Below are positions 2,279 through 32,340 of a stretch of DNA of 39,556 nucleotides, piece after piece. The first letter of the stretch is position 1. Every line of letters begins with the position of its first letter. The notes beneath the pieces are model-generated. The model was not told the DNA's origin and did no database searches. It worked only from the letters and a program-made list of their open reading frames with translations. This DNA is from Desulfovirgula sp. (GTDB lineage Bacteria; Bacillota; Desulfotomaculia; Desulfotomaculales; Desulfovirgulaceae). Position numbers and translations under genes: made by a program. The DNA lies in NCBI GenBank assembly GCA_020725525.1, contig DYEX01000162.1, positions 1-39,556 on the forward strand, read 5' to 3'.

Positions 2279-3256
2279 TTGGTTTTCCGGTTGCGCTATG
2301 ACGCCCTGGTGGAGGGGGCGTTGTTTGCCGGCTTTACGGTGGTCATCGCCCTCTTCGGTCTGCTTGTGCCGCCACTGTTTCTTTTCAGCAACATCGTTAC
2401 CCCCCTGCCGCTGGCGGTGCTTGTCCGGCGGCGGGATTTGAAAACCGGTGCCCTGGCCCTGGTGGTGGCAGCGCTGCTTTTGCTGATGCTTTACGGGCGA
2501 CCGGTGACCGTACTTATGCTGGTCATCCAGATGGGCCCCCTGGGCCTTTTGCTCGGGTTGCTGTTTAAAAACCAGGTACGGGCCGGTGTTGCCGTAACAG
2601 TAGCGGGGGTTGTTGCGGCCGGGTTGACCTTACTAACTCTTGTTTTGGGCTTTTGGATTACCGGTATCAATCCCTTCGCCATCGGTCCGGAAATGCACCA
2701 GGGTGCAGAACATATCCTGGAATGGTATCGCCAGCGGGGCGTTTTAGAACCAGAAATGGAAGAGGAACTGCGCCACCTGCTTGGTGAAATGATGCAACTG
2801 GCAGGTCTTTTGCTGCCGGCCAACCTGGTCATCTGGTCACTGGTCTCCACCTTCATCACCTATTACCTGGGGCAGGTGGTTTTCCGGCGCCTGGGATACG
2901 TGGTCACGCCCCTGCCTGCCTTCAGGCTCTGGCAATTTCCCTGGTATCTTGTCTGGATCCTGATCCTGGGGCTGGTTTTCTTCATGGGGGGTGATGTCCT
3001 GGGGAGGCAGCTTCTTTCAGCCGTCGGGAAAAACCTTTTATACACCGGCGCCTTTCTTTATCTGGTATTGGGATTATCCGTGGTTAGTTTTTACTTTGCC
3101 CGGTGGCAGCTCTCCAGGCTGGTAAAAATGCTGCTGGCAGTGGCCCTTTTGCTGTACTGGCCCTTTGCCGTTATTATTCTGATTACCCTGGGTATACTGG
3201 ATTCCCTTGTCACTATCAGGCATCATCACGGGGATAAAGGAGGGGATGAAAAGTGA
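2279..3256 (+). CDS. YybS-like polytopic membrane protein (DUF2232)
   Basis: A very hydrophobic protein of about 325 aa with some eight membrane segments. The first is ALFAGFTVVIALFGLLVP and the last lies near the end before a basic-acidic tail (HHHGDKGGDEK). The family is known as DUF2232 or YybS and has a fixed place before rplI in many Firmicutes. It resembles transporter-like integral membrane proteins, but its substrate is unknown. The frame is open from 2207. TTG 2279 (MVFRLRYDALVEG) follows AGAGGTG, lies 5 nt after the previous stop, and matches the family N-terminus. The stop overlaps the rplI start by 4 nt. Confidence 0.8.
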   Translation: MVFRLRYDALVEGALFAGFTVVIALFGLLVPPLFLFSNIVTPLPLAVLVRRRDLKTGALALVVAALLLLMLYGRPVTVLMLVIQMGPLGLLLGLLFKNQVRAGVAVTVAGVVAAGLTLLTLVLGFWITGINPFAIGPEMHQGAEHILEWYRQRGVLEPEMEEELRHLLGEMMQLAGLLLPANLVIWSLVSTFITYYLGQVVFRRLGYVVTPLPAFRLWQFPWYLVWILILGLVFFMGGDVLGRQLLSAVGKNLLYTGAFLYLVLGLSVVSFYFARWQLSRLVKMLLAVALLLYWPFAVIILITLGILDSLVTIRHHHGDKGGDEK

Positions 3257-3702
3257 AGGTTATTTTACTGGAAGACGTGAAAAATCTCGGCCCCAGGGGT
3301 GCCGTGGTGAATGTTAGCGACGGCTATGCCCGGAACTTTTTAATACCCCGGCGGCTGGCGGTGGAGGCTTCGCCGGGAAAAATGAAGGAGCTGGCCCAGC
3401 AAAAGGCCGTCGAGGCCAGGAAAAAGGAAGAGGCCGAGGCACGGGCCAGGGACCTGGCCGCCCGGCTGGATGGAATAACGGTGGAGGTCAAGGCGAAGGT
3501 CGGCGAGGGCGGCCGGTTGTTTGGCGCGGTAAACAGCAAAGACATCGCCGAGGCCCTGGAACGGCAGCACCAGATTGCCGTAGACAAGAAAAAGATCCTG
3601 CTCAAGGAACCCATCAAACAGCTGGGTGAACAAACCCTGGTGGTTAAACTTCACCCCAGCGTACAGGCACAGGTCAAGGTAGCCGTAGTTCCCGCAGAAT
3701 AA
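3253..3702 (+). CDS. rplI: 50S ribosomal protein L9
   Basis: A 149-aa L9. The N-terminal RNA-binding domain reads MKVILLEDVKNLGPRGAVVNVSDGYARNFLIPR. A long charged connecting helix spans residues 40-75, and the C-terminal domain begins KVGEGGRLFGAVNSKDIAEAL. It binds 23S rRNA near the L1 stalk and affects frame maintenance. GTG 3253 overlaps the upstream stop (GTGA), so translation is coupled to the yybS-like gene. Confidence 0.95.
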   Translation: MKVILLEDVKNLGPRGAVVNVSDGYARNFLIPRRLAVEASPGKMKELAQQKAVEARKKEEAEARARDLAARLDGITVEVKAKVGEGGRLFGAVNSKDIAEALERQHQIAVDKKKILLKEPIKQLGEQTLVVKLHPSVQAQVKVAVVPAE

Positions 3703-13362: not shown

Positions 13363-13614
13363 TCAATGAGCATCCGGTTCACAAATTTTCCGTCGTTCCG
13401 CATTTTTAGATAATGCCGGGTCATTTTCCCACCAGTCAATACCCATTTCCTTTGCTTTATCTACAGAAGCAATTAAGAGCCTGATTTTTATTTTTAAAAG
13501 TTCGACATCGGAAAGGCATACCGTAATATCCCCGGCAATTACAACCCCTTTATCCAATATCCTCTCCAATACTTCGAGGAGACTAGAAGTTTCCATGCTT
13601 TGTCTTACCGCCAC
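13363..13614 (-). CDS. GvpA/GvpJ-type gas vesicle protein
   Basis: An 83-aa member of the GvpA/J/M/S family. The core LLEVLERILDKGVVIAGDITVCLSDVELLKIKIRLLIASVDKA matches the GvpA fold (helix, two beta strands, helix). A charged tail with WWENDPALSK follows, so it is a minor or tip-associated variant rather than the main shell protein. The frame is open to 13644. GTG 13614 follows AAGGTGGG at 8 nt and gives a family-like N-terminus. It is the last gene of the gvp cluster. J versus S naming cannot be settled by eye. Confidence 0.82.
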   Translation of the reverse strand: MAVRQSMETSSLLEVLERILDKGVVIAGDITVCLSDVELLKIKIRLLIASVDKAKEMGIDWWENDPALSKNAERRKICEPDAH

Positions 13615-13675
13615 TATATTATCCCACCTTTTTAAAAAATACATATATCTGAATCATACTGGTTGTTAAAGTACT

Positions 13676-14017
13676 TTACATTAGATCTCCCAGGGGACCC
13701 AATTTCAAATTAAGATCTTCATCTTTTAGTCCAAAAAGCTGCTTTAATTCCTCCATTTTTTCCTCCAGTCTCATGAAAGTTAACCCCATTCTCTCGATTT
13801 CCTCAGAAGTAAGGGAACCGGCCTCCATTCTTTTGACTGCTTGCTTTTCCATTAACTTACGCAGAAGCTCAATCAAAGTCAGCACCAGTTTCGCCAATCC
13901 TTGTTCAATTTTTTCCGGGTCGACATTGATTCTCGGCTGGTTTATCTGTTGTCCCTGGAGCTCATCGATAAACTCTTCTAAAGCTTCCGGGTCTGATTCT
14001 ACATTCCTGGCAACCAT
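13676..14017 (-). CDS. gvpK: Gas vesicle protein GvpK
   Basis: A 113-aa protein with INVDPEKIEQGLAKLVLTLIELLRKLMEKQAVKRMEAGSLTSEEIERMG, the characteristic GvpK core. The helical middle is followed by a coiled segment, RLEEKMEELKQLFGL. GvpK is an essential minor assembly protein in cluster types studied elsewhere. ATG 14017 follows GGGAGGG. Its first 56 nt overlap the 3' end of the upstream gvpF/L gene in another frame, so the two are probably coupled. Confidence 0.92.
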   Translation of the reverse strand: MVARNVESDPEALEEFIDELQGQQINQPRINVDPEKIEQGLAKLVLTLIELLRKLMEKQAVKRMEAGSLTSEEIERMGLTFMRLEEKMEELKQLFGLKDEDLNLKLGPLGDLM

Positions 14018-14783
14018 TGCTATCCCTCCCGGTATTCATTAGAGATAACGGCCGCTCAAAAACAGCAAAATTATAAGGAGGCCAGGGGCCGCTATATAAG
14101 AACTTTAACTTCCGATACTGGTTCATTACCTGCCTCACTCTTTCCCTGAACTCACCAATACGGTCTTTATGCACCAGATAAGCGGCGTTGAGAAACAACT
14201 TTTCCGAGGGCAACTTTTTCAAACAACTGCCTTCAACGTAGGGACGGAGAGCCCCGTCGATTTCTGCAATCAGCTCATCGGCCCGTTTTTCTAAAGAAGT
14301 TTGTATAAGGTAATCCCGCATCCTGGCCAACATATACTTCTCTCCAGATAATTTTTTCGTTTCTTCCGTATCTCGCTCAAAGTTGCCGGCCTGCTCGTTA
14401 ATCATGATTTCTTCCCTGATTTCATCAACGGGCCATATTACCTTCAGGCCAAATTCCACTTTGTTTTCCAGCCTGGACAGCTTTTCGGTTAACTCCGGGT
14501 AAAACTTCTCCAATAAGGCTTTTACTGCTTCTGTATCCTTGAGAACGGTACCGAATTGCACCGGGAGGACCGTGTAATGGTGCATGACATCCTCAATAAC
14601 CTCTTCATGTAAAAGGATGTTCTCTTCATTTACTTCGTATATAAAGCCCGGGGTATCACTAACAACGGCTCCCAATTCACGATATGAAACATTGTAAACC
14701 CTCCGGCCGTTGAAACCCTTGCGGTCAAAATCAAGCTTTTGGCCTGTATTCACAATACAGTAAACATATACCCCTTCACCCAT
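13962..14783 (-). CDS. GvpF/GvpL family protein (third copy)
   Basis: A 273-aa protein starting MGEGVYVYCIVNTGQ and ending the family core with FLYSGPWPPYNFAVFE. The YTVLPVQFGTVLKDTEAV and GLKVIWPVDE segments are family landmarks. GvpF/L proteins are thought to chaperone GvpA and help nucleate assembly. ATG 14783 has GGAGG at 8 nt; the frame is open to GTG 14792. About 36 residues follow the usual end of the family and run into gvpK (56-nt overlap), which could be a lost earlier stop codon. Confidence 0.88.
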   Translation of the reverse strand: MGEGVYVYCIVNTGQKLDFDRKGFNGRRVYNVSYRELGAVVSDTPGFIYEVNEENILLHEEVIEDVMHHYTVLPVQFGTVLKDTEAVKALLEKFYPELTEKLSRLENKVEFGLKVIWPVDEIREEIMINEQAGNFERDTEETKKLSGEKYMLARMRDYLIQTSLEKRADELIAEIDGALRPYVEGSCLKKLPSEKLFLNAAYLVHKDRIGEFRERVRQVMNQYRKLKFLYSGPWPPYNFAVFERPLSLMNTGRDSNGCQECRIRPGSFRRVYR

Positions 14784-14796
14784 AAATTCCACCTCC

Positions 14797-14991
14797 TTAG
14801 CCTGGTAGATTCTCCTGCTTGAGAGACTGCATTTTTTCTACTGAGGAAAGGACGAGCCTCAAACCAAGGTAAATCAGATCTACGTCGGCCACGGAAATGG
14901 TAATGTCCCCGACGATAACCACTCCTTTATCCAGGACCCTGTCCAGTGTTTCCAGGAGAGTGATGCTTTTTTGCCGGCTCGCTTCACACAT
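14797..14991 (-). CDS. Short GvpA/GvpJ-type gas vesicle protein
   Basis: A 64-aa GvpA-family protein with LLETLDRVLDKGVVIVGDITISVADVDLIYLGLRLVLSSVEKM. It is shorter than the shell GvpA at 23038 and lacks its [23 protein letters not shown] strand pattern, so it is probably a minor component (GvpJ or GvpS type). ATG 14991 overlaps the stop of the upstream gvpL/F (ATGTGTGA), which indicates coupled translation. Confidence 0.82.
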   Translation of the reverse strand: MCEASRQKSITLLETLDRVLDKGVVIVGDITISVADVDLIYLGLRLVLSSVEKMQSLKQENLPG

Positions 14992-15853
14992 CCCCGCCCT
15001 CTCCTTTTATCTTTACAGAGGTAAAGTTATATGGCGGCCAGGGGCCGGAAAGGCTAAACTCAAGACCCTTTGGCTGATATTCCGATTGCAAATGGGCCAA
15101 CTCCCGCGAAAATTCCTTAATCTTTTCTTTCTCAACCAGGTAAGCCGCATTCAAAATCATCTCACTATCCTTTCCGGTTAGTTGCCTATCCATTAACTCA
15201 TTAAGGCGGGAATCTGCAGCCAGCTTACGCAAACTTTGGTGGCATTCCTCTGCATAAGTGAAAGATAAGCGTTCTACTTCCTCTTGCAACAGCTTCTCCA
15301 CCTTTTTCTTTAAGAAATATGCCATTCCCGTAGAACTTGAAGCCATCTCATTCTCCAACCGTGTTATTCCCTTATTGGATTCCCGTATAAATCTGGATAA
15401 GGTTTCCGGGTCATAGAATACCTTTAGGCCCCACTCCTCTTTATCCCTGAGCCTGTTGAAAACCTCCTGGAAACCTGCGTAGTTTTCCGCCAGGATTGCC
15501 AGTATCCGGTCTTCATTTTTATAGACGATACCGAACCTCATGGGGATCACTGTATACCGGGACATCACTTGTTTAACAACCCGCACGTGGAGAATCCCCT
15601 TCGCTTCGACCCAACTCATATCCTTCAATCTTTGGGCAAACCCTTCCTCGCCGAATTCGTCCAGTGATACTTTGCTGATCACTGCCCGGAGATCCCGGTA
15701 GGCAATGGAAAAAACCGTATTCTCAAGGTCAATTCCCTTGACCGCGAGCCCATCAATATACGCACCTGCTTTCGCTTCAGTGAGGCAGTACAAATACAGA
15801 CCTTGCTCCTGACATACTGACCTGGGGACATCTTCCGTTAGAAGCCTGGGCAC
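14984..15853 (-). CDS. GvpF/GvpL family protein (second copy)
   Basis: A 289-aa protein. The N-terminal domain reads GLYLYCLTEAKAG and includes YRDLRAVISKV, and YTVIPMRFGIVYKNEDRI follows. The C-terminal domain ends MILNAAYLVEKEKIKEFSREL and LEFSLSGPWPPYNFTSV. This is the standard two-domain GvpF/L architecture. GTG 15853 has AAGGAGGGGG upstream. It lies 17 nt after gvpG. Whether it does the F or the L job cannot be read from sequence alone. Confidence 0.9.
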   Translation of the reverse strand: MPRLLTEDVPRSVCQEQGLYLYCLTEAKAGAYIDGLAVKGIDLENTVFSIAYRDLRAVISKVSLDEFGEEGFAQRLKDMSWVEAKGILHVRVVKQVMSRYTVIPMRFGIVYKNEDRILAILAENYAGFQEVFNRLRDKEEWGLKVFYDPETLSRFIRESNKGITRLENEMASSSTGMAYFLKKKVEKLLQEEVERLSFTYAEECHQSLRKLAADSRLNELMDRQLTGKDSEMILNAAYLVEKEKIKEFSRELAHLQSEYQPKGLEFSLSGPWPPYNFTSVKIKGEGGDV

Positions 15854-15870
15854 CTGTAACCCCCTCCTTT

Positions 15871-16119
15871 TTAGCCTCCCTCTCTTTCAGCCATCTCGCG
15901 TTCCCTGATAGCACGCAGCCTTTCCAGAAGCTCAGCTTCCCTGACAATGTATTCCTCTTCGCTTATTTCATCCACTTCGTAGAGAAGTTGCAGCTCTAAG
16001 AGCTCCCGCTTTACTTTGTGTGGGTCATATAGTTCTTCTTGTGCCCGTTCTATAATCTGCTGGATCACCCATGCTGTTCCATAAAGCGGGAACAGGAGAA
16101 TGTCATCCACTAGAAACAC
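15871..16119 (-). CDS. gvpG: Gas vesicle protein GvpG
   Basis: An 82-aa protein, MFLVDDILLFPLYGTAWVIQQI, followed by a charged helix (AQEELYDPHKVKREL) and an acidic coiled tail. This matches GvpG, a small accessory protein that usually sits beside gvpF/L. It starts with GTG 16119 and shares one base with the TAG stop of the gvpF upstream (TAGTG), so translation is coupled. Confidence 0.92.
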   Translation of the reverse strand: MFLVDDILLFPLYGTAWVIQQIIERAQEELYDPHKVKRELLELQLLYEVDEISEEEYIVREAELLERLRAIREREMAEREGG

Positions 16120-16904
16120 TAACGCCTCACCTCACCAATTCCTTCCAGCTTCAGGAGCACCTTGACAAAGTTATAAGGCGGCCAGGGTCCGGTATATTTA
16201 AAATCCAGGATCTTATGATATTTCATGTAAAGCCGGTTTACCTGTTCGTCAAATTCCTTTTCGCGATTCCTATCCACCAAAAAGGCGGCGTTTAAAATCA
16301 TGCGTGGCGTAACCAGCTCGTTGGTGGTAGAAGCTGCGGCATACTTTTTCAAACCGTTATAGATTTCTCCAATGTAAACAGCTCTTTTTCTGGCAGCTGC
16401 CTCTTCTACCAGCTGACCCAACCTGAATTTTTTAGAATAAACCGACTCCTGGGAAGCTGGTCGCTGTCTGGCGACTTCCAGTTTGAGTTTTTGAAGTTCC
16501 CTGTGCCCCTTTTCAATTTCCTGGGCAAAACACTCCTTTTTCCAAAAAACCTTCAACCCTAATTCTATTTTGTTATCTATCTTTACCAGCGCTTCTTTTG
16601 CCTCTGTGTAAATTTCCTTCAATAATTCGTATACATCTTCTTCTGTTTTAAAGATCAGGCCAAAACTGGCGGGAATAACCGTATATTCTTCCATGACCCG
16701 GGCAATGACCCGCTCGTGCTGGATGGCATTTTTCCGGTCCGGGTCGTAAATAACTATTGGTGAATCACTGACCACCATGGCCAGGTCCAAATAATTGATA
16801 GTATATACCTCATCGTGACGGTTGCCCACCCCAATCGGTCCAAAACTTCTCGGTTCCAGCGACCTGATAGCACAATAGATGTATTTACCCTCTCCGCTTT
16901 TCAG
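16119..16904 (-). CDS. gvpF: GvpF family protein (first copy), apparent CTG start
   Basis: A protein of about 261 aa. The core contains YTVIPASFGLIFKTEEDVYEL, GLKVFWKKECFAQEI, MILNAAFLVDRNREKEFDEQV and FKYTGPWPPYNFVKV. The conserved first strand, GEGKYIYCAIRS, lies upstream of the first ordinary start codon (GTG 16829) in the same frame. No ATG, GTG or TTG lies between it and the upstream in-frame stop. CTG 16904 gives LKSGEGKYIYCAI and has GGGGTGA about 6 nt before it. I therefore place the start there. Starting at GTG 16829 would remove 25 conserved residues. Confidence 0.85.
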   Translation of the reverse strand: MKSGEGKYIYCAIRSLEPRSFGPIGVGNRHDEVYTINYLDLAMVVSDSPIVIYDPDRKNAIQHERVIARVMEEYTVIPASFGLIFKTEEDVYELLKEIYTEAKEALVKIDNKIELGLKVFWKKECFAQEIEKGHRELQKLKLEVARQRPASQESVYSKKFRLGQLVEEAAARKRAVYIGEIYNGLKKYAAASTTNELVTPRMILNAAFLVDRNREKEFDEQVNRLYMKYHKILDFKYTGPWPPYNFVKVLLKLEGIGEVRR

Positions 16905-16935
16905 TGCAGCTCACCCCGTTTCACCAGAAGAGGCA

Positions 16936-19131
16936 CTATCCGGGATCTTTTTTCATAGTTAGAACGCGAGTTTTTTGACTTTCCACTTGATCTGGCTCTG
17001 GTCTTATCACTTCTTCCAGGGCCATACTGAAATGCATAGCCCTGATCTGAAACAGGGAGTAATCAGTCATTTCATTCTGGTAGTCCTCCACAAACTCTCT
17101 AATCGCCAGCAGAGAAGCCCTGTTGCAGATTGCCTTGATATCGGCACCGGTTGCACCACCAGTTATAATGGCCAGATTGACCAGGTCGACATCTGCTGCC
17201 AGCGGCTTACCACTGGTGTGTATGCGGAATATCTCCAGACGTTCATCTTCATCAGGGACAGGGAGTTCGAGAAGGAGGTCAAATCTTCCAGGTCTCAGAA
17301 GTGCCGGATCAATTAGTTCCAGCCGGTTCGTGGCAGCCAGCACTACCACTCCCTTCAATTCTTCCACCCCATCCATTTCAGTTAGTAGCTGGCTGAGTAC
17401 CCGTTCCGCAACATGAGCATCCCCACTCCCGGTTCCCCTGACCGGTACTAAAGCATCTATTTCGTCAAAGAAAATAATACACGGTGCCGCTTGTTTTGCT
17501 TTTTTGAACACTTCCCGCACACCTTTTTCCGATTCTCCAACCCATTTGGAAAGCAAGGCAGGCCCTTTCACCGAAATAAAATTCACTCCACTTTCATTGG
17601 CCACTGCTTTGGCAATCAGGGTTTTCCCTGTACCCGGGCTACCATAAAGCAAAATACCTTTAGGAGGTTCCGTTTTCGCGTAGGTGAACAACCCGGGATA
17701 TTTTAAGGGCCATTCCACAGCTTCCTTGAGTTCCTGCTTGACCTTATCCAGACCACCTACATCGCTCCAGCGCACATCCGGTACCTCCACGACAACCTCC
17801 CGGATGGCGGAAGGTTCGATTTCTCTAAAAGCTTCCGCAAAATCTGCCATGGTTACTTCCAGTTCCGCAAGGACTTCATAGGGAAGATAATTATCTTGAA
17901 AGTCTATCCTGGGGAAAATTTTCCTTAAGCAGGCCATGGCGGCCTCTTTACACAGAGCTGCCAGGTCTGCCCCTACATAACCGTGGGTAATTTCAGCAAT
18001 CTTTTCCAGGTTCACATCTTTTGACAGAGGCATGCCGCGGGTATGAATTTGCAGGATTTCTAGCCTGCTGTTTCTATCAGGAATATTGATGGTAATCTCC
18101 CGATCAAAACGACCCGGGCGTCTGAGCGCCGGATCCAGGGAGTTGGGAATATTGGTTGCCCCGATAACAATAACCTGGCCCCTTGATTCCAGGCCATCCA
18201 TCAGCCCCAGTAATTGCGCTACAACCCGTTTTTCTACTTCGCCGACGACTGCTTCCCGTTTCGGTGCAATAGCGTCGATTTCATCTAAAAAAATAATACT
18301 GGGAGCATTTCTAGCGGCCTCCTCAAAAATCCCCCGTAGTTTTGCCTCACTTTCCCCGTAAAACTTGTGGATAATTTCCGGGCCGTTTACATGGAAAAAA
18401 TGGGCATCGGTTTCATTGGCTACTGCCCTGGCAATTAACGTTTTACCTGTGCCCGGGGGGCCGTGGAGCAATACCCCTTTTGGTGCCTCAATCCCCAGTC
18501 TGGCAAAAATTTCAGGATACTTCAGCGGCAGTTCAATCATTTCTCGTATTCTTTGAATTTCCTTGTGTAACCCACCGATATCTTCATATGTTACCAGGGA
18601 TTGCTTTTTTATAGATCCCTCCTCGGGCCTCACCTTAACGATAGTACCGGCATGAACCATCACCACACCTTTCGGAATGGTCTCTACAACAACAAACTCC
18701 TGAGGACGGGATCCAAAAAGATTAACCCTGACTTTACTGCCTTCCAGGAGCGGAAAGCCTTCCATCAATTTCCCGATGTACCTGCTGTCCTTATCTCGAG
18801 AACCGGCACGGAAACCAGTGATAGGAGCCAGGATTATAGTCGATGCGGTTTTAAACGGTATTTTTTTAACCTGTACCTTATCTCCCAACCCAATCTGTGC
18901 ATTTTCACGGATGATACCGTCTATTTGAATGATATTTTTTCCCCGGTGTTCCTGGTAAGCAGGCATAACTTTGGCCACGGTTTTTTTATTACCCTTGATT
19001 TCAATAACATCGCCAATAGAGATATCTGCTTTTTCCATATCCTGGGGATCAAGTCTGGCAATTCCCCTTCCCACATCTTTGGTTAAGGCTTCTGATACCC
19101 GTAAAAACAAACTTTTAGTCTCGGTATCCAT
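16936..19131 (-). CDS. Cdc48/VAT-like double AAA+ ATPase in the gas vesicle cluster
   Basis: 731 aa. A Cdc48 N-terminal substrate or adaptor domain comes first ([20 protein letters not shown], residues 5-90). Two AAA+ modules follow, with Walker A GPPGTGKT at 224-231 and GSPGTGKT at 497-504. Both have Walker B IIFLDEID or IIFFDEID and arginine fingers (RRPGRFD, LRPGRFD). These hexamers unfold or extract proteins from complexes. ATG 19131 follows AAAGGAGGC; the frame is open 19 codons further up. It sits between the ArsA-like ATPase and gvpF, so a role in vesicle assembly or quality control is inferred. The archaeal-like domain layout suggests transfer but does not prove it. Confidence 0.9.
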
Positions 19132-19168
19132 TCTTTTCGCCTCCTTTTCCTCTCTTTCTATCTGTATA

Positions 19169-20116
19169 TTAACTCTGCAGTAAAGCACAGTATCTGGACA
19201 CTTCTTTCAGACTTTCTAATCCTTTAACTTCAGAAACCTGCAGTGGTACCTCCACAATCCGACAAAAACCAAGCTCCCGATAGATCACTTGCAGGTGCCT
19301 TTGCTGTTCTTTCCTCCTGGCCATGCAAAAATTACAATCTCTATTTTCAGGAATAACATTGTTGATAATCAGGTGTCTCACCGGTATCCCATAGGATTTA
19401 AGGGCTGCAAACATCCGTTTCGTTTCATTGATGGCCATAGCTTCTGGAATGGTTACCGCAATAAATCTATTTCTTTCCGGCGTTCGCAAAAAAGTCCCCA
19501 CCTGGCGAATCGTTTTCTTCATCATCAATAAAAAGTCATCCGTTTCATCAAAGATATCCTTTCTTGAAAACCGCCCTACGATATACCTGTATTTCCAGCG
19601 CATCCTGGCCAGTACTTTAATCCAGTCATCAAGTATGTTGGGTAAGGTTAATAAACGGAGGGTATGACCTGTTGGGGCGGTGTCCCAAATATATAAATCA
19701 AATTTACTATCTTTCATAAAATCCATAATTTGCTTTAAACCCATCATCTCATCTAATCCGGGTATGGTTAACCTGTAAATATTATCGATATCATCCTCAT
19801 CAAGATAGGTGGTAGTAGTTAACATATTTAAGATTTCTTCTCCGTATTCTTCCTTAAATCTGTTTAACATTTTTTCAGCATTTAACTCCAGGGCGGCCAG
19901 ATTTTTAATTTTCGTTACATCTGTAATATCATCACTAATTTCCTGTCCCAGAATATCCGATAAAGAATGAGCCGGATCGGTGGAGAAGAGCAAGGTTTTC
20001 CTGCCCAGGCTTGCATAATGGACAGCAGTGGCCGCCGCACAGGTTGTTTTCCCCACTCCACCCTTCCCGCTGAATAAAAGAAACTTTGTGCTGATACCGG
20101 TTAAATGAGACACCAT
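19169..20116 (-). CDS. ArsA/Get3-like ATPase in the gas vesicle cluster
   Basis: 315 aa, one NTPase domain. The deviant P-loop [11 protein letters not shown] is at 15-25, [13 protein letters not shown] is switch I, and [15 protein letters not shown] is switch II. CNFC at 261-264 matches the CxxC that binds zinc at the Get3 dimer interface. Get3 delivers hydrophobic tail-anchored proteins and acts as a holdase; bacterial relatives are less well studied. GvpA is strongly hydrophobic, so a role as GvpA chaperone is a reasonable inference. ATG 20116 follows AAGGTGG. No arsenite pump or ars regulator is nearby, which argues against arsenic resistance. Confidence 0.88.
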
Positions 20117-20161
20117 CGTTAACCACCTTTTAAACGATCCAAACCTGAAGCCTGCTCCGGA

Positions 20162-20491
20162 TCAATTGCAGGCCAGTCTTTCTCCGATTCTCTGAATCTC
20201 CCTGAGGAGCGCAAGCTTATCCTGTTTAATAATGGCTTGCATTAAAAGCAACTTTTTCCGCTGCCTGCCCAGGTTTGATTCTTGTCGCCGTACCCACTCC
20301 AGCCGTGCCATAATTATACATTGCCGCCGATTCAACACCTCTTCCCGGTGTATTAAACTCTTCAACTTATGCAGCTGCAACTGAATTTTTGAAATTCGCT
20401 TTCCCGAACCGGGGAGCGAACCTGCATGAATAGTTAATACGGTACGAATATCACCCAGCGAACGAAGATCATTTATCCCGCGAACATCCAT
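20162..20491 (-). CDS. Uncharacterised helical protein of the gvp cluster
   Basis: 109 aa, family not recognised. After a short N-terminus (MDVRGINDLRSLGDIRTVLT) the rest is basic and helical, with heptad-like patterns such as IQLQLHKLKSLIHREEVLNRR and RQRKKLLLMQAIIKQDKLALL. It has no signal peptide or membrane segment. ATG 20491 follows AAAGGAGG. It lies between gvpH and the ArsA-like gene in the same operon. It might be a distant GvpV-like coiled-coil protein, but I cannot show this. Confidence 0.7.
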   Translation of the reverse strand: MDVRGINDLRSLGDIRTVLTIHAGSLPGSGKRISKIQLQLHKLKSLIHREEVLNRRQCIIMARLEWVRRQESNLGRQRKKLLLMQAIIKQDKLALLREIQRIGERLACN

Positions 20492-20520
20492 GGAATACCC
20501 TCCTTTTCTCTCTAATGAGA

Positions 20521-21057
20521 TTACCCATTATCAGAGGTTTTCGTCTTCGGCAATCTGAGCTCTATGATCCCATTTTTGAAAATAGTTGTCGCGCCTTCCG
20601 GATCTACCACTACCGGCAGCAGCATTTCTTTGCGATATTTTCTATCTTTCCTTGAAGCTGTAATGACCAGAATATCACCATTTACCTGGAAATGAAAATT
20701 ATTTTCGTTTACGCCGGGAAGTTCCGCAATCACCAAAATATCATCGCTCTCATCAAAAACATCCACAATTGGTTCTACAACTTCTTCAACGACAAGGCCC
20801 TCTTCGTTTTTTCTAATATTGCCGAAAGGTTTTATCCTGGGAGAACCTTCATTGCCAATTTTGATATCGATACCGTAGATACCCTTTAATCCTTTGACCT
20901 CATCTAATCCGGTAATTTCACCGATATGGGAAATTTTTGCCTTGCCTTCTGCTTCCATCTGTTGTATTAGATCAATAAAATTACCGAGTCCTTTCAAAAG
21001 ATCGCCCAGCCCAACATTGATTTTGATATCCCCTGAGGAATCTTTTTTACTGGTCAT
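20521..21057 (-). CDS. gvpH: Hsp20-domain gas vesicle protein GvpH
   Basis: 178 aa. The N-terminal half (DIKINVGLGDLLKGLGNFIDLIQQME) is characteristic of GvpH-type proteins. The C-terminal half is an alpha-crystallin domain: VFDESDDILVIAELPGV, then FHFQVNGDILVITASRKDRKY, and ends GIIELRLPK. Small heat-shock proteins of this type are thought to keep gas vesicle proteins soluble. The C-terminal I-x-I tail is absent. ATG 21057 follows AAAGGAG. It lies between gvpN and the 109-aa gene. Confidence 0.9.
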   Translation of the reverse strand: MTSKKDSSGDIKINVGLGDLLKGLGNFIDLIQQMEAEGKAKISHIGEITGLDEVKGLKGIYGIDIKIGNEGSPRIKPFGNIRKNEEGLVVEEVVEPIVDVFDESDDILVIAELPGVNENNFHFQVNGDILVITASRKDRKYRKEMLLPVVVDPEGATTIFKNGIIELRLPKTKTSDNG

Positions 21058-21138
21058 GGTATGCTCCTTTCCGTATGCTCAATTTTTGCCGGGGAAGGAT
21101 GTCTGACCCTATCCCCACCCGTCCCCGGCCTTTACCAA

Positions 21139-22053
21139 TTAAGAATAGTATTGGTTAAGGAGTTCCTGAATCAGCGTGGCTGCGTTATTTCTCGCTTTCC
21201 CTTTTATATTGCCTGTACTAACGGTACTGCCGGATTCACTCGTCAATACATCTAAATATATCTGCCTCAGGAAAGAGTTGCTGATATCCCGTTTATCTTG
21301 AAGGCTGATCACCCTGGCGATGGCAATACTGGCACGAACCGTTGGGGTAAATTCATATTCCCCTTTTTCCCGAAACGAACGTACAATTCTGACAACCCGT
21401 TCTGCCTCCTCGACCGGAAGCCCGGATTTGGCTGCAGTTATCGCAATTTCCGTCTCTTCATCAAAATAGTCTAAATCGAGAGTAATCATCCGGTCCCGTA
21501 AGGCGTCCTGACTTTTGTAAACTCCGGCATATTCCGCCGGATTGCTGGTAAAAATAGCCCTGAAGTCGGGATGAATCTGGAGGTATCGTTCTCCCTTTCT
21601 AGCCGGCGGTAGCTCCAGTATTCTTTCTTCCAAAATTGATAACAAGATGTTGTTTGCTTCTGGTCTTGATCTGGTAAATTCGTCGTAGATCAAAGTATAA
21701 CCGTTTCTACAGGCCTCGGTGATACAGGCATCCTGCCAGCGCAGACTCATTTGTTCTTCTGTTTTTAAAACCGAATGGATAAAGTTATCAATCACCCTGC
21801 TTATTTTATAACCGTGGAGGCCCCCAATAAGGTCGGTAGGAGTGAAATCGTCATTCCCGTGGAGCAGTACCACCGGACGGCCAATCTGGCTTGCCAGATG
21901 CAGGGCCAGCGTTGTCTTACCTGTACCAGCAGGTCCCCGAAGATGTACCGGTAAACCTGCCCGGATGTAGGCCAGGGCACGTGCGGTCAGATCTTTTATA
22001 TAAGCAGTTTGTACGAAATTTCCCATTACCTGGGCATAAATCTTATCTACCAA
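21139..22053 (-). CDS. gvpN: Gas vesicle AAA+ ATPase GvpN
   Basis: 304 aa, MoxR-like AAA+ protein. Walker A lies in LRGPAGTGKTTLALHLA. HGNDDFTPTDLIGGLHGYK and YTLIYDEFTRSRPEANNILLSILEE (Walker B and sensor region) are typical of GvpN, as is IFTSNPAEYAGVYKSQDALRDRMITLDLDY. In other systems GvpN enlarges or promotes vesicle growth. It starts at TTG 22053 after GGGAGG and GAGGGAAG purine runs. It follows gvpO by about 20 nt. Confidence 0.94.
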   Translation of the reverse strand: MVDKIYAQVMGNFVQTAYIKDLTARALAYIRAGLPVHLRGPAGTGKTTLALHLASQIGRPVVLLHGNDDFTPTDLIGGLHGYKISRVIDNFIHSVLKTEEQMSLRWQDACITEACRNGYTLIYDEFTRSRPEANNILLSILEERILELPPARKGERYLQIHPDFRAIFTSNPAEYAGVYKSQDALRDRMITLDLDYFDEETEIAITAAKSGLPVEEAERVVRIVRSFREKGEYEFTPTVRASIAIARVISLQDKRDISNSFLRQIYLDVLTSESGSTVSTGNIKGKARNNAATLIQELLNQYYS

Positions 22054-22074
22054 TCTTCCCTCTACCTCCCGACT

Positions 22075-22371
22075 TTACATTATTCCCCGATCAGGATCGG
22101 CCGGGTCCTGCAGGATACCCTGAAGCTTACCTCTCTCTCTCAATTCCTTCCGCGTGAAGCATACTACCTCGCGTTTTTCATTTAATTCCACTTCGTAAAC
22201 TCCCAGCAACTCATTACGCCCATGCCTGCGCATGTACTCGTCTTCTTCCGTTACTTCTATTTCCACGATCCATCTGCCGTCTCGTATACACGCGCCGACT
22301 ACCTGCCCGGGCTTATTCAGGACAGTGGCAAAAAAATCCTTTACAATATTTATGATATTTTCCAAACCCAA
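22075..22371 (-). CDS. gvpO: Gas vesicle protein GvpO
   Basis: 98 aa. VVGACIRDGRWIVEIEVTEEDEYM followed by ELLGVYEVELNEKREVVCFTRKELRERG matches the GvpO core, a strand-rich domain of about 60 residues whose GW-x-VEVEV and YEVELD patterns are seen in haloarchaeal and actinobacterial proteins. GvpO has been linked to expression of gvp genes. It starts at TTG 22371 after AGGAGG at 9 nt. An intrinsic terminator and a structured leader lie directly upstream. Confidence 0.85.
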   Translation of the reverse strand: MGLENIINIVKDFFATVLNKPGQVVGACIRDGRWIVEIEVTEEDEYMRRHGRNELLGVYEVELNEKREVVCFTRKELRERGKLQGILQDPADPDRGIM

Positions 22372-26434: not shown

Positions 26435-28021
26435 TTACTTCTGGCACAGCAGGTCTTCCAGCTGGGGCGGGAAGAAGTCGGTGGGGAAGGGAGTCTTGAC
26501 CGGATTGAGGAAGTTGGCGCATACATCGACCTTTTTCTCGAAAAAGGGCTCGCAAGGCGGCGGTTCGGGACAGAACCCGAAGGCGGGCACCAGCAGCTGT
26601 ACCTTGCCGAGCACCTTGATCACCAGGAAGACACCTACCTGAATAGTCAGGGTAAGGTCGCTGATGACGGGGGTGCAGAGAAGCTCGGAACGGGTTTCCA
26701 CGGCGATGGTCAGTTCCACCTCGTCCCGGGCGGGTGGGATAAACAGGACGATGTCCTTTAAGATGTTCGGTAGTGTGCCGTCAACGGTAACGGTGGCCCC
26801 GGTGCTGGTGTTAAGCACGGTGGCGGTAAAGGCGATGGAGACGGTCATTTGCACCCGGGAGAAGTTTGGCCTGCTGAGGATGGGCGTGATCACCAGGCTG
26901 CCCGGAACAATGGTGCCGTTGTAGAAACGGATACTCTGGAACACATAGGGACCGCCTGGCGGCAGGGTTATATTTACTTCCGGGAAGCACTCACGCTGTT
27001 CGCAACTGGTATAGACTTTGTCGACCAGGATGCACACGGATTCCTTAATTTCCTCAAGTACATAAGGGTCGGTCATGTCAATGGGTTCACCGGGGCTCTC
27101 CACCGCACCCAGCCGGCCGATGTCAATTCCTCTGGGTCCGCCCACAAAGGCCACGTTCGCGATGGTGCCGATTACCGTATTGGTGGTGGTGTTGATGATG
27201 GAAATATCGTTGCTGCCGAAGTTGGTTACAAAGGCTCGCACGAAGGCCACTTCGGGGTTGGTGTCGAAGTCCAGCCGGTCGGGGGTCGTTCCCACCGGGA
27301 TGGTTGTGGTTACGGTAAAGCTGGCGGTACTGATTACCGATACGTTGTTGGATCCGCTGTTGACCACATAGGCAAAGGTACCGGAAGGGTTCACCTTTAC
27401 CGCAGTGGGATTGGTACCTACGGCGACAGTGGCAATAACGGTGTTGGTGCCGGGGTCAATGACAAAAACGTTATTGCTGCCAGAGCAGGCCACCCATACC
27501 CGTCCGTCGGGGGCTACATCAATGAACCGCGGGTCGTCACCTACGGCGATGGGAGCACCTACCACCGCATTGGTGGCGGTGTTGATCACCGTTACGTTAT
27601 CCGAACCGCTATTAGCTACATAGACCCGGGTGTCGTCAGGTGAAATAGCTACACCGATGGGAGCAGTGCCCACTCCCACGGTGGCCACCACCGTATCCGT
27701 GGTTGCATCGATAACCGACAGGGTGTTGTTACCCGAGTTGGTGACATAAACCCTGGTGCTGGTGGAGTTAACCGTCACATCTGCCGGAGCATTGCCTACG
27801 GTGATGGTGGTGATGGGCGTATTGGTTTCAGCACAGATGACACTGACGGTGTTGCTCCCGTTGTTTGTGACGTACACCTTGCTGCCGTTGGGTGCGAGAC
27901 GGACGCTGTTGGGGCCCGTTCCGGTGGATACCCGGGCGATAATGGTGCCGGTGGTGGTGTTGAGTACGGCGATAGAGTTATCGCCGGGATTGGCTACGTA
28001 GCCTCGAAAAGCCGCTAGCAT
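26435..28021 (-). CDS. YVTN beta-propeller protein with a conserved C-terminal surface domain
   Basis: 528 aa. Residues 5-300 hold about seven repeats of some 42 aa on the pattern YVTNxGSNTVSVIDxxTNTVxATIxVGxxPxxVxxxP, forming a propeller. From about 330 a separate domain runs from VDKVYTSCEQRECFPEVNITLP through SLVITPILSRPNFSRVQMTV and AFGFCPEPPPCEPF to a FPTDFFPP end. The protein at 31741 repeats the plan of this domain. The propeller begins right after MLAAFRG, with no signal peptide, although such propellers are usually exported. ATG 28021 follows AAGGAGG at 9 nt. A spore or cell surface role is inferred only. Confidence 0.85.
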   Translation of the reverse strand: MLAAFRGYVANPGDNSIAVLNTTTGTIIARVSTGTGPNSVRLAPNGSKVYVTNNGSNTVSVICAETNTPITTITVGNAPADVTVNSTSTRVYVTNSGNNTLSVIDATTDTVVATVGVGTAPIGVAISPDDTRVYVANSGSDNVTVINTATNAVVGAPIAVGDDPRFIDVAPDGRVWVACSGSNNVFVIDPGTNTVIATVAVGTNPTAVKVNPSGTFAYVVNSGSNNVSVISTASFTVTTTIPVGTTPDRLDFDTNPEVAFVRAFVTNFGSNDISIINTTTNTVIGTIANVAFVGGPRGIDIGRLGAVESPGEPIDMTDPYVLEEIKESVCILVDKVYTSCEQRECFPEVNITLPPGGPYVFQSIRFYNGTIVPGSLVITPILSRPNFSRVQMTVSIAFTATVLNTSTGATVTVDGTLPNILKDIVLFIPPARDEVELTIAVETRSELLCTPVISDLTLTIQVGVFLVIKVLGKVQLLVPAFGFCPEPPPCEPFFEKKVDVCANFLNPVKTPFPTDFFPPQLEDLLCQK

Positions 28022-29402: not shown

Positions 29403-30230
29403 CTACCGGCTCGTTACCGGTTTCGGTAACGAGCCGGTACGACCCTGGGGCGCCGGGAGGTGGTAGCGGGCCTGCCAGATGCCCGGGTTACTGCGGATGC
29501 GTCCGGGTGGGGGCTTGAAAACCGGGGAACCCCAGGCGAAGAGCCCCTTTTCGTCCATTTTGATAATGTTGTCCGCCGCATGGCCGAAATCAAACCCCAC
29601 CCGGCCCAGGTCCATGGCTGCCACGGCTACCATTTTGGCATTGGCCCCGGCAGAAATCAGAGCCAGCTCGAAATTAAACCGGGGCAGTTGTGCCAGCACC
29701 CGGTCCAGGTCGTGGTAATTGCGCAGATCGAGGACACCCATTATACCGGTAAATTGATAGCGCCGTTCCAGTACCTCCCGCAAGCGGGCCATGGGTCTGC
29801 CGATTAAAAGAATCCGGGTGTGCCGGAAAAGTTCATAAAACAAAGGTGTGTTTGCACAATAATGATTGATAAAGGCATAGCAGGTCAGGCGGGGGGTAAT
29901 CCGGTAATGGGAGAGGATTTTTTCCGTCAGGGGGTACCAGCAGTAGCAGTCGGTCTGGTGAAGGAGCCCCAGAACCGTGGCCCGGCGTACCGCCTGGAGC
30001 AGGCGGTCCCGGGCCTCCAGGTTGGGGATGGCGATGCCGGAGTAACGGTCACTGGCCACTACATTATACATGGCAATTAAATCCTGCACCGGATGAATGC
30101 TTTCCTGGGCCAGGATGAAATTTTCCCCGTCACCGATGCGCACAAGGGAAAAGGGCCTGCGCTGGTCCAGGTGCTCTTTCACCAGGTAAAGCAGTTCCCG
30201 GGCGTCGGGTATGGTGAACTGGTTGGCCAT
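29403..30230 (-). CDS. GT-D fold glycosyltransferase-like protein
   Basis: 275 aa. PFSLVRIGDGENFILAQESI near residue 35 is the hallmark of the GT-D-type domain, whose DGE acidic group is proposed to bind metal and donor. ILLIGRPMARLREVLERRY and FELALISAGANAKMVAVAAMDLGRVGFDFG follow. The last 30 residues are Pro/Arg-rich and overlap a hairpin. ATG 30230 follows GGGGGGTC; the frame is open about 74 codons further, but those read as an out-of-frame shadow of the next gene. It follows the DUF1858-like gene by 16 nt. The substrate is unknown. Confidence 0.8.
   Translation of the reverse strand: MANQFTIPDARELLYLVKEHLDQRRPFSLVRIGDGENFILAQESIHPVQDLIAMYNVVASDRYSGIAIPNLEARDRLLQAVRRATVLGLLHQTDCYCWYPLTEKILSHYRITPRLTCYAFINHYCANTPLFYELFRHTRILLIGRPMARLREVLERRYQFTGIMGVLDLRNYHDLDRVLAQLPRFNFELALISAGANAKMVAVAAMDLGRVGFDFGHAADNIIKMDEKGLFAWGSPVFKPPPGRIRSNPGIWQARYHLPAPQGRTGSLPKPVTSR
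29405..29438. repeat. Perfect 14-bp hairpin at the end of the GT-D gene
   Basis: ACCGGCTCGTTACC at 29405-29418 pairs perfectly with GGTAACGAGCCGGT at 29425-29438 around a 6-nt loop. It covers the last codons of the GT-D gene. No T-run follows on the minus strand. Confidence 0.65.
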
Positions 30231-30246: not shown

Positions 30247-30525
30247 CTAAATCTTTTCGATAAAAGGGAGACCGGTGCCGGCTTTTTTGAGCAGGTGACG
30301 GGGAACCCTGATTTTAATTTTAGGTGTCTGGTCGGGATTTTGTGCCCAGTAGTACAGGTTGAACAGGAAGTCGTCCAGGGGGATTTTTCTTTGCCGGGCA
30401 GCCTGCCCGACGGTGAGTTCTTCCCCTCCTCACCCGAAACAACCAATGCCATACAGGTCGAAGAACCGGCGTGTGCCGGGGAAACGGTTGATCACTTCAG
30501 AGATACGCATCTGTGGGCTAATCAT
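30247..30525 (-). CDS. DUF1858-like small protein with in-frame TGA: candidate selenoprotein
   Basis: 92 codons. ATG 30525 gives MRISEVINRFPGTRRFFDLY at residues 6-25, then GIGCFG and an in-frame TGA at 30432-30430 (codon 32). The same frame continues with GGEELTVGQAARQRKIPLDD and stops at TAG 30247. DUF1858 proteins normally have GIGCxGC here, so TGA replaces the second Cys of CxxC, as in redox selenoproteins. CGGGCA and TGCCCG, with GGC between, form a hairpin whose loop starts 26 nt after TGA, within the range reported for bacterial SECIS elements. The start overlaps the stop of the upstream glycosyltransferase (ATGATTAG). A Cys-to-stop mutation is the alternative. Confidence 0.7.
30385..30405 (-). 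promoter_or_regulatory. Candidate SECIS hairpin
   Basis: In the gene's direction, CGGGCA-GGC-TGCCCG lies inside the coding sequence, with 26 nt between the TGA at 30432-30430 and the apical GG. Bacterial SECIS elements have a short loop with G in its first two positions, 16-37 nt after UGA. The loop here is GGC (or AGGCU with one pair open). Confidence 0.45.
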
Positions 30526-31549
30526 TTTGGCTAACCCATCCTTTCTTTTTCAGTGTTTCTTCTATTACCCCGATGGCCAGTTGGGCCCGGTGGGCCCAGG
30601 AGTTTTCCCGGGCCAGCGCGATGCGCCTCTCCCGGGCTCCCGGTGAATCCCCGTTCAGGGCGCGATGGATTAATTGATTAAACTCCTCCGGTGTACGTCC
30701 CACATATATTTCCGGGTGGAACAATACTTCCGGCAGGGGAGTAGATACCACCGGCTTGCCGGTGCTGAGGTACTCGTACATTTTAATCGGGTTGCACCCC
30801 TCGGTCATTGGGGTAATCTTGAAAGGAATCAGGCAAACGTCGAAGCATTGCAAATAATTGGGCAGCCAGCGATAGTCCCGGTAGCCCAGGACACTCATGT
30901 TCGGCCTTTGAAAGGGCAGGGAAATGTTATACAGCGGGCCCACAAAAACAAAGTGCAGCCTGGGGTTGGTGTCAGTTATGTAATCCAGCAGTTCCCAGTC
31001 CAGCCAGGTGGCCAGGGCGCCGCAGTAACCTGCCACAGGCCGGCCGTCAGCCGGCAAATCCGGTGGCCTGGGGAGGTTACCGTACAGGGCCGGGTGAAAA
31101 TGGGTGTAGTCCACTCCGTTGGGACACAGATACACGTTGGGGTGGTGCTGCCGGTTGGTTTCGTAGAGTTTTCTGGAGGTGGCGAAAATTACATCGGCCC
31201 GGGCGCGCAGTTCTTCCACGTAAGGGGCCCAGCTGCTGAATTCTTCCGCCGGCTCGTCTAAAGCATCGTAGACCACCAGGTGGGGCCGGTAGCGCTGGAT
31301 ATGTCTTACCATCGCAGGGGCGGAAACCCACAGGATGCGTGGCTCCTCGTGCGGGATGGTCAGGGGATCGACCCCCGTACAAATGTACAGGTTTTTCGCC
31401 AGCCGGAAGGCCCCACGTGGTTCGTTGGGGCGCCGGGGGTTGCAGTATATGGCCTGGTAGCCCAGGCGGGCAAATTCCCTGAACATTTGCTGGGGACGCT
31501 GGCACATCCAGTTAAAGCGCAGCGACGGCGGATGAATGATAGCAGGCAA
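30518..31549 (-). CDS. Glycosyltransferase, GT1/GT4-like (TuaH-type)
   Basis: 343 aa, GT-B fold. FNWMCQRPQQMFREFARLGYQAIYCNPR and the VVYDALDEPAEEFSSW acceptor-side motif resemble TuaH-like enzymes. VPICPNGVD-type text (VYLCPNGVDYTHFHP), VAGYCGALATWLDWELLDYI and NPIKMYEYLSTGKPVVSTPLPEV form the donor domain. It probably adds a sugar in surface glycan synthesis. The start is TTG 31549, with AAAGGAG 9 nt before it. The 3' end overlaps the start of the candidate selenoprotein gene by 8 nt. Confidence 0.85.
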   Translation of the reverse strand: MPAIIHPPSLRFNWMCQRPQQMFREFARLGYQAIYCNPRRPNEPRGAFRLAKNLYICTGVDPLTIPHEEPRILWVSAPAMVRHIQRYRPHLVVYDALDEPAEEFSSWAPYVEELRARADVIFATSRKLYETNRQHHPNVYLCPNGVDYTHFHPALYGNLPRPPDLPADGRPVAGYCGALATWLDWELLDYITDTNPRLHFVFVGPLYNISLPFQRPNMSVLGYRDYRWLPNYLQCFDVCLIPFKITPMTEGCNPIKMYEYLSTGKPVVSTPLPEVLFHPEIYVGRTPEEFNQLIHRALNGDSPGARERRIALARENSWAHRAQLAIGVIEETLKKKGWVSQND

Positions 31550-31740: not shown

Positions 31741-32340
31741 TTGTTTCAGAGTATCTTTACCTACGAGTCTATCTTTACAGATACCGTGGTACATCTGGTG
31801 ACGATACCGTTGCCGCCGGAGGCAAGCTACACCCTGGCAGAAATTAATTTTCCGCCCGGAGTAAAACAGCTGGAAAACCTGGTGCTGGCGCCCCTTCCCG
31901 GGTCGCCGGATTATTCCGTGGTGCAGTTTGTTTTGCGGGTGCCCTTTGAAGCCCGGCTTACCGTTGCCAATGCGGAGGAGGAGCTGGCTCTGGACGGTTA
32001 CCTGCCGGATACCCGGATTCATACAGTGCTCTATACCCCACTGGCCGGTAAAGGCCGGTTGCCTCACGTAACGGTAGAGTCCGCCAGCCGGCTTCTCATG
32101 CCGCCGGGAATAACTGCGGAAAAACTGGAACTTATCGTAGATCTGCATGTGGTGGTCAGGCTTTCAGGTAAGCACCAGCTCAATCTGCCCCTTGATTTCG
32201 GGTCGGGAGGAGAGGGGCAACCCCATCGTTTAAACCGTACCTGGAGCGAAGCATGCCGGAAATTTAGCGACCCGGGGCAGACGGAGTTTCCCCGGGACTT
32301 CTTCCCCATTCCGCCCGAAAACAAGGGTACAGAATATTAA
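31741..32340 (+). CDS. Stand-alone copy of the propeller protein's C-terminal domain
   Basis: 199 aa, no named family. It follows the plan of residues 330-528 of the protein at 26435. IFTDTVVHLVTIPLPPEASYTL matches the KVYTSC...NITLPPGG start, LVLAPLPGSPDYSVVQFVLRVPFEA matches LVITPILSRPNFSRVQMTVSIAFTA, LDGYLPDTRIHTVLYTPLAGK matches VDGTLPNILKDIVLFIPPARD, and FPRDFFPIPPE matches the FPTDFFPPQ end. The cysteines of the longer protein are mostly lost. There is no signal peptide. It starts at TTG 31741, with GGGGGTAG upstream. It is divergent from the glycosyltransferases on the minus strand. Confidence 0.72.
   Translation: MFQSIFTYESIFTDTVVHLVTIPLPPEASYTLAEINFPPGVKQLENLVLAPLPGSPDYSVVQFVLRVPFEARLTVANAEEELALDGYLPDTRIHTVLYTPLAGKGRLPHVTVESASRLLMPPGITAEKLELIVDLHVVVRLSGKHQLNLPLDFGSGGEGQPHRLNRTWSEACRKFSDPGQTEFPRDFFPIPPENKGTEY

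Follow-up and report, generated by a model that had tools for sequence, protein, structure and literature searches.

We predict that the minus strand of the window (the whole stretch of 39,556 nucleotides that was analysed) encodes a small DUF1858-domain selenoprotein in which UGA codon 32 stands for selenocysteine (Sec). Taken as a whole, this is very probably the best explanation of the locus. The Sec reading is strong because an open frame, a conserved TGA, purifying selection, a hairpin and the Sec machinery, all of them computed, point the same way. The features of the predicted gene are as follows.

30247..30525, minus strand: predicted DUF1858 selenoprotein gene, 92 residues from ATG to TAG, recognised by its frame, Pfam match and orthologs.
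30430..30432, minus strand: in-frame TGA, codon 32, predicted to be read as selenocysteine (CFGU); same codon in 4/4 subfamily members.
30393..30411, minus strand: putative bacterial SECIS hairpin GTCGGGCA-GGC-TGCCCGGC, with the loop from 26 nt after the TGA.

The minus-strand frame starts with the ATG at 30525 and reads MISPQMRISEVINRFPGTRRFFDLYGIGCFG, TGA, GGEELTVGQAARQRKIPLDDFLFNLYYWAQNPDQTPKIKIRVPRHLLKKAGTGLPFIEKI and TAG (30249-30247). The TGA at 30432-30430 is the sole internal stop of the 92 codons, and 60 sense codons follow it. A preliminary description of this DNA had reported such a TGA-interrupted frame with its 60 further codons, which we confirmed; the strand, absent from that description, is the minus strand. 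Gene calling with table 11 splits the frame at the TGA, and no 92-residue ORF was present among the listed ORFs. The locus is an example of a gene cut at a TGA by table-11 gene callers. With C written for U, the translation clears the cut-off of the Pfam DUF1858 model (PF08984), at 34.7 versus 32.2 bits, so that the proposed DUF1858 membership was borne out; in the genome scan, where the stop was left unread, the match reached 30.3 bits, just under the cut-off. The proposed CxxU motif was likewise found, as CFGU in the window protein and as CYGU in its orthologs.

The first protein search of 113 genomes of the class gave three far relatives, each with one internal TGA. They come from Peptococcaceae bacterium BRH_c4b (L013/L021), BRH_c4a (L015/L022) and Desulfocucumis palustris (L014/L023), and share 39%, 40% and 35% identity with the window protein, respectively. 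In all four members of the subfamily, the Sec codon occupies one alignment column after C-F/Y-G, with C-Y-G in the three orthologs. The homolog search allowing U or C, proposed in the preliminary description, thus returned three orthologs, and in each of them this codon is TGA. Close homologs that all carry Cys and lack the hairpin had been named there as the case against selenocysteine; the three orthologs carry both the TGA and the hairpin. A profile built from the four rows matched 19 of the 113 genomes at E <= 0.001. The TGA genes are found in four genomes, the window's own included, at E <= 3.8e-39, and the other matches are at 4.7e-11 or weaker. This profile search revealed no Cys member of the subfamily in the 113 class genomes, nor did a scan for exact matches to two patterns, run over 84,980 species genomes. 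In the pattern scan of genome contigs, 4 of 232 stretches were confirmed, three of which are the orthologs. The fourth, L024 from Rhizobium anhuiense, was rejected, as it contains TVGQAARQ in frame but no CxxC/U motif. The protein was unmatched in phage and plasmid records, and none of the 37 pattern stretches from IMG/VR viral contigs was confirmed.

Substitution rates were estimated by the Nei-Gojobori method for the closest pair (L013 and L014), on which the dN/dS value rests, the more distant pairs being near saturation. After the TGA, dS was 1.57 and dN 0.27 (dN/dS about 0.17); before the TGA, the values were 1.15 and 0.19. The excess of synonymous change is missing from the other two frames of this pair. 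These values indicate purifying selection after the TGA, as before it. The conserved C-terminal residues include P64, P68, K71 and I72, and C29 and G31 are kept. The results bear directly on the simplest rival explanation, namely that the TGA is an ordinary stop, so that the locus would be a pseudogene, a gene for a 31-residue peptide or the site of a sequencing error. The splitting of the frame by the table 11 gene caller agrees with such a stop, and the full-length product is a predicted one. On the other side stand the recurrence of this TGA in three independent genomes whose proteins show 35-40% identity, the purifying selection and the conserved residues (P64, P68, K71, I72) downstream of it, and the hairpin described below. 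A sequencing error, in particular, is hard to hold because three independent genomes share the same TGA. We regard an ordinary stop as extremely unlikely. Given the cost of selenocysteine, a gene in which it persists at 35-40% protein identity can be expected to depend on it.

The preliminary description had also placed a hairpin about 20 nt after the TGA. We confirmed its position, with CGGGCA beginning at 20 nt and the loop at 26 nt, and the folding that had been suggested gave a strong hairpin: the 42 nt 3' of the TGA fold with -18.9 kcal/mol (z = -2.5 in 200 dinucleotide shuffles). In bacterial SECIS elements, the loop lies about 16-37 nt after the UGA and has a G among its first two bases. 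Here, the loop lies at 26 nt and reads GGC; a stem-loop of this kind recurs in 4/4 subfamily members, and the hairpin is at the same place in all three orthologs. It exceeds chance given the encoded protein. When synonymous codons of the window gene were redrawn 5000 times with the amino acids fixed, an equally good hairpin appeared in 0.4% of draws; in the same test, 6.1, 2.3 and 1.3% of draws matched the hairpins of the three orthologs. Redrawing scored by the folding energy of 45 nt (2000 draws) gave 2.2, 1.7, 2.3 and 9.5% for the window gene and the three orthologs. The codons of TVGQxAR (TVGQAAR in the window gene) underlie the hairpin, and the conservation of this motif may stem partly from the RNA rather than from the protein. 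No SECIS family was matched at the Rfam gathering score in the window and ortholog loci.

The hairpin was then compared across the DUF1858 family. The comparison covered, among the matches listed, 18 Sec-type genes (four from the subfamily, plus 14 that belong to other families within the phylum) and 43 Cys-type homologs, in which Cys takes the place of Sec, all outside the subfamily. The 61 rows consist of the best-scoring loci and 17 loci fetched mostly for their TGA, which means that the 18 Sec forms among 61 should not be read as a frequency. L017, L018, L059 and repeat subfamily loci were left out as duplicates, and L065, L085 and L090 because no domain was parsed. PF08984 is matched by 4/4 subfamily members at E <= 0.1. 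To count as matching, a hairpin needed 5 or more stem pairs, a loop located 22-30 nt past the codon and a G within the first two positions of that loop. It was found in 17 of the 18 Sec-type and 4 of the 43 Cys-type genes (Fisher p 2e-10, the rows being related and chosen in part for their TGA). Inspected by eye, L027, the lone Sec form outside this definition, has this element too, containing an A-C mismatch. Stem cells were paired in 86.5%, compared with at most 48.4% in slid alignments. The covariation score of 0.189 was reached by 3 of 500 shuffles. Covariation is modest and adds little to the pairing itself, because only 2 pairs changed on both sides, against 3 after a +1 slide, and the score of 0.189 compares with 0.167 after that slide.

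In a tree of the same 61 rows (70 columns), the subfamily forms one clade with support of 99/97. A 12-row Sec group (99/98) is separate from it, as are L027 and L092. The branches of the window gene, L015 and L027 are long in this analysis, and the tool cautions that such branches meet. The fewest Sec/Cys changes on the tree are 4 (bootstrap range 3-4), while the starred branches force only 1. An independent gain of Sec in the subfamily is possible on this tree, and one origin is likewise possible. One genome, G169, contains two Sec-type DUF1858 genes, L092 (G169:C13) and L040 (G169:C1). The former groups among Cys-type rows and has a hairpin of different sequence, GCCGC(AGGT)GCGGC, at the same place.

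A search for selA, selB, selC and selD had been proposed as well, and all four were found in the genome to which the window belongs (G000; 3.24 Mb, 191 contigs). The selA and selB genes are adjacent on contig C102; SelA scored 541 bits (637 bits with NCBIfam selA) and SelB 376 bits against a cut-off of 242. A tRNA-Sec with the anticodon TCA (UCA) lies on contig C59 (RF01852, 74.9 bits), and SelD, on contig C148, scored 406 bits. Together with the TGA in three orthologs and the hairpin at the same place, this machinery supports the proposed selenocysteine reading. The selD gene (L094; G000:C148:2016-2939, minus strand) itself has one internal TGA and reads KAAGUAAKVGP, which we take to be the usual Sec/Cys site of SelD; selD is probably a second Sec gene of the genome, and SelD itself a selenoprotein. 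SelA was present in 8/8 relatives without the selenoprotein described here (five of the same genus and three others of the same family). In the Desulfocucumis palustris genome (G037, 84% complete), where SelA alone was looked for, it was not found.

The same genome has a tRNA-Cys at G000:C85:26579-26671 (L004 1500-1593) with a GCA anticodon, a U before the CCA and a long variable arm, which passes the Rfam tRNA-Sec cut-off (52.6 versus 47 bits). It fits the known selC* tRNA-Cys described in PMC7609411. There, selC* tRNA-Cys is proposed to have, in some delta-proteobacteria, a second SelB as its partner. That proposal, the long variable arm and the 52.6 bits with the tRNA-Sec model would favour a TGA read as cysteine, for instance by this selC-like tRNA-Cys. 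Its anticodon, however, is GCA and not UCA, and it should therefore read Cys codons; moreover, a true UCA tRNA-Sec is present along with SelA, SelB and SelD. We find the insertion of cysteine hardly credible and retain selenocysteine as the predicted residue.

The predicted selenoprotein gene lies between two glycosyltransferase genes, and a further conserved ORF is found nearby.

30518..31549, minus strand: upstream GT4-type glycosyltransferase, TuaH-like, whose end overlaps the selenoprotein start by ATGATTAG.
29403..30230, minus strand: downstream GT-D-fold glycosyltransferase (PF22882 201 bits, NF040628 185 bits).
31741..32340, plus strand: conserved ORF with relatives near the three orthologs (39-44% identity), listed with no implied role in the mechanism.

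The overlap between the start of the frame and the upstream glycosyltransferase stop had been noted before and was confirmed. The GT4-type ORF matches PF13692 with 32.4 bits, and its nearest NCBIfam model is TuaH, at 74.5 bits far below the cut-off of 550. The order GT4, selenoprotein, GT-D is kept in 4/4 genomes, and the flanking genes are 62-67% (GT4) and 59-64% (GT-D) identical to those of the three ortholog loci. GT-D matches occur in 5 of the 113 class genomes, namely the four selenoprotein carriers and G057 (35%), and in 36 of 398 genomes of the phylum. The selenoprotein is absent in 5/5 other genomes of the genus and 3/3 further ones from the family. Because these genomes do have SelA, the distribution of the cassette is patchy, which would be expected of genes for surface glycans. 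The ORF at 31741-32340 has no Pfam or NCBIfam match; its relatives are located at L021 2941-3510, L022 3160-3732 and L023 3029-3604. A beta-propeller protein at 26435-28021 (minus strand) has a C-terminal domain related to this ORF (30% over 170 residues). Elsewhere in the window, a gas vesicle gene cluster occupies 13363-22371 (minus strand), with Gas_vesicle, GvpK and two GvpL/GvpF matches over the cut-off and weaker GvpO and GvpH-like matches.

Other DUF1858 genes were also inspected for this context. By eye, no glycosyltransferase was recognised beside five other Sec-type DUF1858 loci (L027, L032, L040, L050, L054). In the flanks of the loci returned and in four fetched regions, DUF1858 was found near GT-D in two genomes of one genus; these genes are Cys-type and ordinary in length, and they do not directly adjoin GT-D. 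They are found at L126 about 3106-3318 and L127 8496-8690, near a cluster with GT-D genes, which is a weak hint.

The close spacing of the cassette raises the question of whether the Sec codon is mainly a selenium-dependent switch. According to this explanation, UGA would act as a stop when selenium is scarce, and GT-D would not be reached by coupled translation. Only 16 nt separate the selenoprotein TAG from the GT-D ATG at 30230 in the window, and the two BRH_c4a ORFs share 8 nt. However, in L023 and L021 GT-D can start no earlier than about 73 nt and 119 nt after the stop, respectively, so tight coupling is not conserved; in addition, the protein appears to be under purifying selection, with C29 and G31 kept. 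A role mainly as a switch is very unlikely, and a functional selenoprotein remains our preferred reading.

The structure was modelled with AlphaFold from the four-row alignment, with U entered as C. The model has a mean pLDDT of 76.8 and four main helices; its C-terminus is unsure, with pLDDT <50 from residue 84 onwards. Helices 16-24 and 39-45 flank the CxGU motif. The top Foldseek matches were 2k5e (prob 1.00, E 0.05) and 2k53 (prob 0.99, E 0.11), solved DUF1858-type proteins that were matched by the sequence search too.

Based on these data, the following mechanism can be proposed. SelB and tRNA-Sec would decode UGA codon 32 as selenocysteine, directed by the stem-loop inside the coding sequence (TVGQAAR codons, loop 26 nt downstream). 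The product would carry its CxGU motif in a loop between two helices, where Cys29 and Sec32, by analogy with general Sec chemistry, may form a reversible thiol/selenol (selenylsulfide) redox pair. Judging from the genomic context, the protein may serve the flanking GT4 and GT-D enzymes, for example by acting as their redox partner, or by sensing redox state, during the making of a surface glycan. A more specific idea, that the CxGU protein physically partners GT4 and GT-D and ties surface-glycan making to redox state or selenium supply, is a tentative one, which we consider rather doubtful. If true, a selenoprotein would be built into the glycan assembly of these anaerobes. The co-occurrence with glycosyltransferases offers a testable handle on the role of DUF1858, a domain of unknown function.

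Sec-containing DUF1858 proteins are already known, since the selenoprotein listings of two reviews (PMC9312934, PMC13188914) include a "DUF1858 domain-containing protein, PF08984, CxxU"; this is not a new selenoprotein family. For DUF1858, the review listing cites ISME J 2016 (PMC5029168) and PLoS Genet 2008; the word DUF1858 is absent from the main text of the former. The new-family table of the deep-Sep paper (PMC12013277) does not contain the window protein. What looks new is the subfamily, with its own clade, longer C-terminus and glycosyltransferase-flanked locus. Among open-licence papers, we found no description of a glycosyltransferase-linked subfamily and none that joins selenocysteine, DUF1858 and glycosyltransferase.

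Three known systems resemble the predicted protein. The iron-sulfur cluster repair domain ScdA_N / YtfE N-terminal (PF04405) shows weak similarity both in sequence (18.3 bits; 9r7j, E 0.0046) and in fold (5fnn, prob 0.41), but the window protein is below the Pfam cut-off of 32.5 and has no di-iron domain following. TIGR03980, the hybrid-cluster-protein-associated redox disulfide domain, is the best NCBIfam match of 4/4 subfamily members; the window protein, however, reaches 31 bits where the cut-off is 44.95, and we recognised no gene for a hybrid cluster protein next to its own gene. The closest likeness is to the DUF1858 CxxU selenoproteins (type WP_012065717.1), with the same domain and a Cys, two residues, and Sec in place of the second Cys; WP_012065717.1 was likened by its listed domain and motif, and the sequence comparison was made with the 14 other Sec-type genes. 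In 13 of these 14, the hairpin is at nearly the same place (L027 has one mismatch). Unlike most Sec-type DUF1858 proteins, which have about 65-75 residues, the subfamily members have 83-92, with a longer C-terminus. They also differ from the other Sec-type genes in being one codon shorter between Sec and the hairpin, in branching apart (99/97) and in sitting in a glycosyltransferase cassette.
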